In this document: positions 39,078 to 46,651 of the stretch, piece after piece
Position numbering within the stretch: position 1 is the first letter of the stretch
Layout: the number at the start of each line of letters is the position of its first letter
Source of the DNA: Achromobacter aloeverae
GTDB taxonomy: Bacteria > Pseudomonadota > Gammaproteobacteria > Burkholderiales > Burkholderiaceae_B
Assembly (NCBI RefSeq): GCF_004121055.1
Contig: NZ_PYAL01000004.1
Coordinates: 372,001 to 436,000 of the forward strand
Reading direction: 5' to 3'
DNA length: 64,000 nucleotides
The notes under the pieces: model-generated
The model's input: the letters and a program-made list of their open reading frames with translations, nothing else
What the model was told of the DNA's origin: nothing
Databases searched by the model: none
Translations under genes and position numbers: made by a program

Positions 39078-39162
39078 TGGTGCCCGGGACCGGAATCGAA
39101 CCGGTACGCCTTGCGGCGGGAGATTTTAAGTCTCCTGTGTCTACCAATTTCACCACCCGGGC
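39078..39162 (-). tRNA. tRNA-Leu(UAA)
   Basis: Minus strand: acceptor GCCCGGG/CCCGGGC with encoded ACCA; anticodon stem GGAGA/TCTCC with loop CTTAAAA giving anticodon UAA; class II variable arm; T-arm CCGG-TTCGATT-CCGG. The gene is uninterrupted. A TACAAT box on the minus strand (39228-39223) may be its -10. Confidence 0.95.
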
Positions 39163-39296: not shown

Positions 39297-39619
39297 GGAA
39301 GGTTGGCAGAGTGGTTGAATGCACCGGTCTTGTTCAATCGAGCGCCACGCGGGAAACCGTGTGGATGTAAGGAGTCAAATTCGGTGAAGCCCCTGGACCA
39401 CTGGTCCGAGGTAATGCCGAGCGAAGATCGAAGGCGGCATGGCCGCCTCGATAACGTGTAGAGACTTGACGGCTCCCACCTAAGGCTCAGCGGGGCTAGG
39501 GTGAAGGCAAAGTCCAGACCCGCAAACAGGCGCAATGCCTGGTGGCGAAAGCCATAGGGGTAAGGAAAACCGGCGGGGCTTCACAGCCCTCGTGAGTTCG
39601 AATCTCACACCTTCCGCCA
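39297..39619 (+). tRNA. tRNA-Ser(UGA) interrupted by a group I intron
   Basis: Exon 1 (39297-39331) ends CACCGGTCTT; exon 2 (39565-39619) begins GAAAACCGG. Joined, they form a complete class II tRNA: acceptor GGAAGGT/ACCTTCC, discriminator G, encoded CCA, anticodon stem CCGGT/ACCGG with loop CTTGAAA (anticodon UGA), variable arm GGGCT/AGCCC, T-arm GTGAG-TTCGAAT-CTCAC. The intron sits between anticodon bases U34 and G35. No other tRNA-Ser(UGA) is in the window, so decoding of UCA may depend on splicing. Confidence 0.93.
39332..39564 (+). ncRNA. Self-splicing group I intron (Azoarcus-like, subgroup IC3 type) in tRNA-Ser
   Basis: 233 nt, no open frame. Visible core: P1 with CTT (exon) against GAG (39340-39342), placing a U-G wobble at the 5' splice site; P2 CCACGCGG/CCGTGTGG capped by a GAAA tetraloop (39345-39364); P3 GGAG (39371) / CTCC (39473); the segment AGTCAAATTCGGTGAAG; P7 GACTT (39463-39467) / AAGTC (39510-39514); the segment TAGAGACTTGACGGC; P9 TGGC-GAAA-GCCA with a second GNRA loop; terminal G at 39564. 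From memory the Azoarcus tRNA-Ile intron has the same blocks, with compensatory changes in P3 (GGUG/CACC) and P7 (GACUA/UAGUC). Confidence 0.93.
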
Positions 39620-45937: not shown

Positions 45938-46651
45938 ATGGGGAAAATAAATAAGATAATCGGCGGCCGCGTATCCCGGGAGGCATGCATCAACGTCGCG
46001 ATGGTCGAGGACGATGCCGCCTGCCTGCAGGCGCTGGCACATGCCGTGCAGGCCGCCGAAGGACTGCGCATGGCGTGGATGGCGGCCAGCCGTGGCGAAG
46101 CCATGGCCTGCCTGCCGCGCGAGCGGCTGGACGTATTGTTGGTGGACCTGGGCCTGCCCGATGGCTCCGGCCTGGACGTGATCGCGGCCGCGCGCACCTG
46201 CTGGCCGGATTGCGCGGTGATGGTGAGCACCATCTTCGGCGACGAGACCCACGTGCTGCGGGCCATCGAAGCAGGCGCCATGGGCTATGTGCTCAAGGAC
46301 CTGAGCGCCGGGCAATTGGTGACCGAGATCCGCAGCCTGCACGCGGGAGGCAGCCCCATCAATCCCATGGTCGCCAGGAAACTCCTCATGCAGCGCGCCA
46401 TGCCGGCGCCCCCGCCCGTGCCCCCGTCCCTGCCCGCCACGGCGCCCGCCGTCTCGCCCTCCGCACGCGAAGTGGAGACGTTGCGCCTGGTCTCCCGGGG
46501 ATATACGGTGGAGGAAGTGGCCGGGGCCCTCGGCGTTTCGCCGCACACGGTGCAGACGTTCGTACGGCGCATCTATACCAAGTTGCAGGTGAATTCGCGC
46601 GCGGCCGCCGTGCGCGAGGGCACGCGCCAAGGGTGGCTGAGTGACGATTGA
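45938..46651 (+). CDS. LuxR/NarL-type response regulator
   Basis: About 237 residues from the ATG at 45938; a GTG 24 bp upstream is an alternative and no start has a good RBS. Receiver domain with acidic pocket VEDD (about 23-26), phospho-acceptor Asp70 (LLVDLGLPDGSG) and Lys in YVLKDLSA; Pro-rich linker (APPPVPPSLPATAPAV); NarL-type HTH at the C-terminus (SAREVETLRLVSRGYTVEEVAGALGVSPHTVQTFVRRIYTKL). Its stop overlaps the start of the sensor-kinase gene by 11 bp, making a two-component pair. Divergent from the metallopeptidase gene, a possible target. Confidence 0.9.
   Translation: MGKINKIIGGRVSREACINVAMVEDDAACLQALAHAVQAAEGLRMAWMAASRGEAMACLPRERLDVLLVDLGLPDGSGLDVIAAARTCWPDCAVMVSTIFGDETHVLRAIEAGAMGYVLKDLSAGQLVTEIRSLHAGGSPINPMVARKLLMQRAMPAPPPVPPSLPATAPAVSPSAREVETLRLVSRGYTVEEVAGALGVSPHTVQTFVRRIYTKLQVNSRAAAVREGTRQGWLSDD

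Follow-up and report, generated by a model that had tools for sequence, protein, structure and literature searches.

The only tRNA-Ser(UGA) gene found in the genome of Achromobacter aloeverae carries, with a probability that we put at roughly 0.93, an Azoarcus-type (IC3) group I ribozyme that has no ORF, that would be spliced out by means of a guide matched to its host tRNA, and that would have moved together with the gene as a unit. The gene lies in the stretch of 64,000 nt analyzed here ("the window," to which coordinates refer unless another record is named). According to this reading, the precursor would be transcribed whole, intron included; the intron would fold, and its guide, UCGAG, would pair with both exons; a guanosine held in P7 would cut after U34; and U34 would be joined to G35 to give the mature tRNA, in the cell either with or without helper proteins. 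The intron-bearing tRNA gene would in turn have passed between lineages in one piece. Serine would be added to the few tRNA hosts in which bacterial group I introns are known, a needed single-copy tRNA would depend on RNA splicing, and default scans would report the gene as missing.

The split gene and the fold of its intron

The gene consists of a 5' exon at 39297..39331 (+ strand), ending C32 U33 U34; a 233-nt intron without an ORF of its own at 39332..39564 (+); and a 3' exon at 39565..39619 (+), starting G35 A36 and including an encoded CCA. The intron lies inside the anticodon, between U34 and G35. With the insert left out, ARAGORN calls the joined exons as a tRNA-Ser(tga) of 90 nt, class II, with a complete cloverleaf and a long variable arm, as the initial annotation had proposed for 39297-39331 plus 39565-39619 once 39332-39564 is removed. 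Shifting the junction one base 3' gives identical joined exons, a one-base ambiguity in the DNA; we place the splice site at 39331/39332, after U34, because the pair at the 5' splice site of group I introns is by rule a U.G. The initial annotation had also held that standard scans miss the gene. This is correct for ARAGORN run without introns, which called no tRNA at 39297-39619, and for Rfam RF00005, which had no match there, but not for ARAGORN run with its intron option, which calls the split tRNA-Ser(UGA) gene in place.

The predicted core helices P3, P4, P6, P7, and P8 occur in the correct order, with P3 and P7 forming a pseudoknot. The fold was assessed on an alignment (A2) of 21 split tRNA-Ser(UGA) genes, window included ("Ser set"), with a structure of 66 pairs drawn on the window sequence; all elements are on the + strand, and percentages are of cells paired. 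P1 (39329..39342) pairs exon CUU with guide bases GAG (39340-39342), puts a U.G at the splice site in every one of the 21 rows, and adds the pair G39332-C39339; a P10 may form between guide bases UC (39338-39339) and G35 A36 of the 3' exon. The P2 hairpin (39345..39364; 87.5%), with a GAAA loop at 39353-39356, has 8 pairs, 6 of them changed on both sides. P4 (39380-39385 with 39416-39421; 93.7%) encloses P5 (39390-39411; 100%) in a P4-P5 region at 39380..39421, and is followed at 39422..39456 by P6 (39422-39423 with 39455-39456; one of two pairs changed on both sides across hosts) and the P6a hairpin (four of four pairs so changed in the Ser set). The P8 hairpin (39478..39502) is 100% paired in its outer part and 88.1% in its inner part. 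The P9 region (39518..39561) has 7 doubly changed pairs among the 21 Ser genes and comprises an outer stem (39518-39521 with 39558-39561; 84.6%), a first hairpin (39527-39541; 97.6%), and a second hairpin (39542-39555; 100%) with a GAAA loop at 39547-39550. P3 (GGAG/CUCC; strands 39371..39376 and 39468..39476) and P7 (GACUU, 39463..39467, with AAGUC, 39510..39514; the expected guanosine-binding site) are invariant in the Ser set and change across hosts, as set out below. The terminal base is G39564, and G is invariant at that column in the 21 rows. The group I elements that had been read from the window alone, namely the U.G, the P2 and P9 GAAA loops, P3, P7, and the terminal G, were each found at the place given for them.

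Within the Ser set, 96.0% of 1363 cells are paired, as compared with at most 41.4% when the structure is slid along the alignment; 23 of 66 pairs are changed on both sides, against a shuffled mean of 15.9; and the covariation score is 0.263, against 0.115 shuffled and no more than 0.053 when slid. One of the five measures, further pair types, is modest (52 against 47.1 shuffled, a value reached in 22 of 500 shuffles). Because the rows are related and the structure derives from one of them, the shuffles flatter it. Doubly changed pairs concentrate in P2, P6a, P8, and P9; P1, P3, and P7 are invariant, and their support therefore comes from the four non-Ser rows (Leu(UAA), Leu(CAA), phage Lys, and Thr) that, together with 12 Ser cores, make up a cross-host set of 16 cores. 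In this set 98.4% of 384 cells are paired, 11 of 24 pairs are doubly changed as compared with 3.7 in shuffles, and the four outer pairs of P3, one of the two pairs of P6, and three of the five pairs of P7 change on both sides yet stay paired. The initial annotation had described compensatory differences in P3 and P7 relative to the Azoarcus tRNA-Ile intron; differences of this kind are borne out with Leu, Lys, and Thr cores, introns of Ile2, Leu, Arg, Thr, and Lys tRNAs having taken the place of Azoarcus in the comparisons. We conclude that the predicted group I fold is supported by covariation, both among the 21 Ser introns and across host tRNAs.

The initial annotation had pointed to the Rfam group I model as a check. 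RF00028 does match in place (E 5.3e-6 on 521 bases), but at 30.6 bits, under its gathering score of 50, and it has no match at E<=1 against the whole 6.5-Mb genome. A sub-cut-off score with this model is not rare, because it matched in 8 of 14 control genomes and passed the cut-off in 2 of the 14. Since RF00028 was weak in place and absent genome-wide, group I identity was judged from relatives. R1, a covariance model of the intron core that the window sequence helped build, matches at 39369-39519 with E 3.2e-34, and the intron alone folds to -96.4 kcal/mol (z -3.2). Azoarcus-type (IC3) introns are short, with a single P2 hairpin and a P9 hairpin, both with GAAA loops, and no large P5 extension. 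The window intron has each of these features, and the Ile2 introns of the order, 10 of which align to the same core model, match the model as it does. Judged by these features and the shared core model, the window intron is an Azoarcus-type (IC3) group I intron.

Hosts, guides, and probable movement of the introns

BLAST in 61 genomes found a split Ser gene, besides that of the window, in two genomes of the same genus (G001, G005) and three of the same family (G017, G024, G025); among plasmids it gave matches in 4 records and among phages in 7, none of which covered 80% of the query. Three further genomes of the genus (G002-G004) carry Ser(UGA) without an intron, near Leu(UAA), so that intron-plus and intron-minus alleles, which the initial annotation had suggested looking for, both occur in the genus. 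A scan of genome collections with a pattern running from splice site to P3 yielded 69 stretches, 18 of which are split Ser(UGA) genes, 16 by ARAGORN and two (L118, L131) by reading; ARAGORN had labeled L118 'Pro ggg.' The records of these 18 include Pusillimonas, Allopusillimonas, Giesbergeria, Methyloversatilis, Propionivibrio, Sulfuritalea, other betaproteobacteria, and one Steroidobacteraceae bin, together with metagenome bins assigned to Acidobacteriaceae (L113, L118) and Mycobacteriaceae (L116) that may be misbinned. ARAGORN found no split Ser gene in the remaining 51 stretches, three of which (L065, L074, L091) were also re-examined, and no tRNA was found in L134, one of two viral-collection stretches.

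R1, whose filters lose some weak matches, matches 63 of 399 genomes of the order and 107 of 268 of the family. By ARAGORN with correction by eye, the commonest host in the order is Leu(UAA), followed by CAU tRNAs, in which the intron lies either 3' of position 36 or ahead of the anticodon, and then by Arg(CCU), Leu(CAA), and Thr(UGU). By eye, loci labeled 'Ser tga' (L197, L200) and 'Ser aga' (L193) are misread CAU tRNAs, 'Phe aaa' (L159) is a Leu(UAA), and 'Pro cgg' (L161) is a CAU tRNA. Ser introns are rare: split Ser(UGA) genes occur in 4 of 399 order genomes (G000, G005, G017, G197), in 9 of 268 family genomes (12 pattern matches less three chance matches, G428, G434, and G650, with no tRNA there), and in 1 of 369 genomes of a class sample, the window's own (two pattern matches less one likewise due to chance, G834). 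In one genus of the family (g4), all 43 genomes searched match the intron model, and the 19 with a host read all have it in tRNA-Leu(UAA). Two order genomes (L204, L205) have a tRNA-Asn(GUU) with an anticodon-loop insert and weaker core-model matches.

The guide was looked for in the first 30 intron bases (L203, with no ARAGORN intron, was left out). UCGAG is present in 26 of 26 Ser introns, window included, and in 0 of 83 others, and it fits both Ser exons, GAG to exon CUU and UC to exon GA. Among the Leu introns, 35 of the 37 in Leu(UAA) and all 9 in Leu(CAA) have UUGAG. UUGUG is present in 9 of 10 Ile2 introns. All 7 Arg introns have UUGGG, which turns up as well in 5 of the 37 Leu(UAA) introns and in a single one of the 26 Ser introns. 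UUGCA is present in 2 of 3 Thr introns, the third (L136) having a boundary apparently misplaced by ARAGORN. The sequences indicate that the guide tracks the host, introns of other hosts carrying guides for their own exons. A guide match to both exons of each host would be a plain rule for the adaptation of a ribozyme to a new tRNA. Three observations concern individual hosts. In the nine tRNA-Leu(CAA) introns (L013, L167, L168, L179, L224, L233, L236, L238, L239) the 5' exon ends CUC, and the splice site would be a C-G with guide GAG, not the usual U.G. In CAU tRNAs L182, L186-L193, L195, L197, L199, L200, and L202, several of them misread by ARAGORN as Leu, Ser, or Val, the intron apparently lies between U33 and C34, unlike the Ile2 site, and a simple rule found no guide. 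L136 itself, on a large alphaproteobacterial plasmid (Tritonibacter mobilis, 1.26 Mb, NZ_CP015231.1, 823-1150), is a tRNA that ARAGORN labels Ile, that reads by eye as Thr(UGU), and that has a similar group I intron.

An intron tree was built from 100 cores over 138 columns. Its columns are few, several of its rows are long, its bootstrap is not settled, and it lacks resolution in the deeper branches and in what is sister to the Ser clade. All 26 Ser introns fall in a single clade of this tree (95/82; recovered in 93% of 200 bootstrap trees), and the Leu(UAA) host label needs 6 changes. The tree bears on the idea that the Ser gene recently acquired its intron locally, as a copy of an intron of the adjacent tRNA-Leu(UAA), which has the same CUU target. 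Leu(UAA) introns are frequent in order and family, Leu(UAA) adjoins Ser(UGA), and GAG suits both 5' exons; yet the Ser introns make up a clade of their own, whereas the Leu introns of the family belong to the large Leu clade; compensated changes set the two apart in P3 and P7; and the guide bases that would form P10 read UC in Ser and UU in Leu. Because the Ser introns form a separate clade, such a recent jump from the neighboring gene is disfavored, and we consider it very unlikely. The sequences instead place the Ser introns in one clade that is spread over several families and tied to a particular tRNA body: the acceptor 5' strand GGAAGGU is present in 24 of 25 intron-bearing and 4 of 63 intronless Ser(UGA) genes (Fisher 2e-16, relatedness ignored). 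For this comparison 73 loci were read, 10 of which proved not to be Ser(UGA); 70 of the 73 were taken one per genome from 105 matched genomes, and the others are those of G002-G004.

The history of the locus was followed with the neighboring tRNA-Leu(UAA) gene (39078..39162, - strand), intronless and divergent, as a control. The Ser exons of the window share 98.9% identity with their counterparts in G001, G005, and G503, the last from another genus, and 81-83% with those of intronless, same-genus G002-G004. The window Leu(UAA), by contrast, is 97-100% identical to that of G002-G004 and 86.5% identical to that of G001 and G005. Upstream, a GAAATCCGATACAAT stretch is common to intronless G002-G004 and three intron-bearing genes of the genus. 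Because the adjacent Ser and Leu tRNA genes show opposite affinities, the best explanation is that the Ser gene was exchanged between lineages in its entirety, intron included, and this probably took place. The conflict between these neighbors makes it testable whether an intron that lacks a homing enzyme spreads by itself or along with the entire tRNA gene.

A more far-reaching version, in which ribozyme and tRNA body travel together as one allele by exchange of the whole tRNA-Ser(UGA) gene between lineages, and introns in anticodon loops may persist by breaking prophage attachment sites, is improbable. On the exon tree the intron label has to change at least 6 times, as compared with a shuffled mean of 21.7, which counts against a single travelling allele; so do the intronless L322 and L323 of the order, which are 90% identical to the window tRNA, nearer than most intron-bearing ones outside its cluster. 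The attachment-site part draws on an IMG/VR record (G1019, with L133, L330, and L331), also a hint at what might have carried the gene, in which a 62-bp exact direct repeat (1084-1106 and 46620-46642, 45.5 kb apart) corresponds to the 3' part of Leu(UAA) from the anticodon stem on and covers the anticodon loop, the site of Leu introns in other genomes. By collection class and ORF reading, the stretch between the repeats looks like a prophage inserted in tRNA-Leu; an integrase search of the record (PF00589) gave no match. The split Ser gene lies about 0.2 kb past the complete Leu gene, outside the prophage repeats, and a viral origin of the gene in this contig (L133) was rejected.

A single gene that has to work

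A gene interrupted in its anticodon could also be dead, a tRNA pseudogene with an intron relic, with UCA read by another tRNA. Splicing is deduced here from sequence, and UCA is rare: 42 long ORFs read in the window (picked by length, and not proven genes) have it 41 times in 17,947 codons. Standard decoding rules require a UGA-anticodon tRNA to read UCA, however, and UCA is present in 25 of the 42 ORFs. The genome has 44 other tRNA-model matches, which by ARAGORN include Ser CGA, GGA, and GCU; a second Ser(UGA), the finding that the initial annotation had named as fatal to a functional split gene, was looked for among these matches and not found. R1 has a single match in the genome, where a further intron-bearing copy would give another. 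Since no other Ser(UGA) was found in the genome, the split gene must work; its exons make a complete tRNA, and core and guide are conserved in relatives. A dead gene is accordingly highly improbable. Introns that are spliced by proteins, as in archaea and eukaryotes, likewise lie in tRNA anticodon loops, usually at 37/38, according to the relevant passages of PMC4033280. The probability that the window intron is one of these is next to negligible given its length, its full covarying group I core, and its 34/35 site. We conclude that the intron very probably cuts itself out of the tRNA-Ser(UGA) precursor.

Comparison with known tRNA introns

An intron is known in Agrobacterium tRNA-Arg(CCU), and the Azoarcus tRNA-Ile intron is reportedly associated with the work of Tanner and Cech. 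In the passages available from open-licence PMC papers, bacterial group I introns are reported in tRNA-Leu(UAA), fMet, and Ile (PMC3984707, PMC8450103, PMC11835236, PMC5733544, PMC4033280, PMC6293099), including Ile2 introns of Acidovorax and Burkholderia (PMC8450103) and fMet introns of cyanobacteria (PMC8450103, PMC4033280); inserts of 22-49 nt in cyanobacterial Arg, Gly, and Lys tRNAs are called group I in the same set. The passages searched in these open-licence papers name no tRNA-Ser host of a bacterial group I intron, in agreement with the initial annotation, to which no described one was known. Phage introns known by 2014 are said in PMC3984707 to be all in protein genes. In Gordonia phage Daredevil (L135; NC_048021.1, about 1454-1765), an unannotated tRNA-Lys(UUU) gene adjoining a gene annotated as integrase appears to be interrupted behind its CUU by a ~238-nt group I intron; its joined exons are called as tRNA-Lys(ttt).

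The cyanobacterial tRNA-fMet introns, as described in the passages available from PMC8450103 and PMC4033280, are self-splicing, as the Ser intron very probably is, lie like it in the anticodon loop of a tRNA that default scans then miss, and differ in host. The order's tRNA-Arg(CCU), Leu(CAA), and Thr(UGU) introns share with it the core model and a host-matched guide, and differ in host, guide, and, in part, clade. With the tRNA-Leu(UAA) introns, the Ser intron shares the 34/35 site, as had been noted for cyanobacterial examples and holds for those of the order and family, as well as the CUU target, the GAG guide core, and a class II host; the Leu(UAA) introns of the order differ in having 3' exon AA, guide bases UU before GAG, and a separate clade, as compared with GA and UC for Ser. 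With the IC3 introns of Azoarcus tRNA-Ile(CAU) and of Ile2 tRNAs, it shares small size, lack of an ORF, location in the anticodon loop, GAAA loops in P2 and P9, and the same core blocks. The Ile2 introns, as represented by sequences from the order, have a different host, splice after U36, and carry guide UUGUG and P3 GGTG, whereas the Ser intron would splice after U34 and carries guide UCGAG and P3 GGAG.
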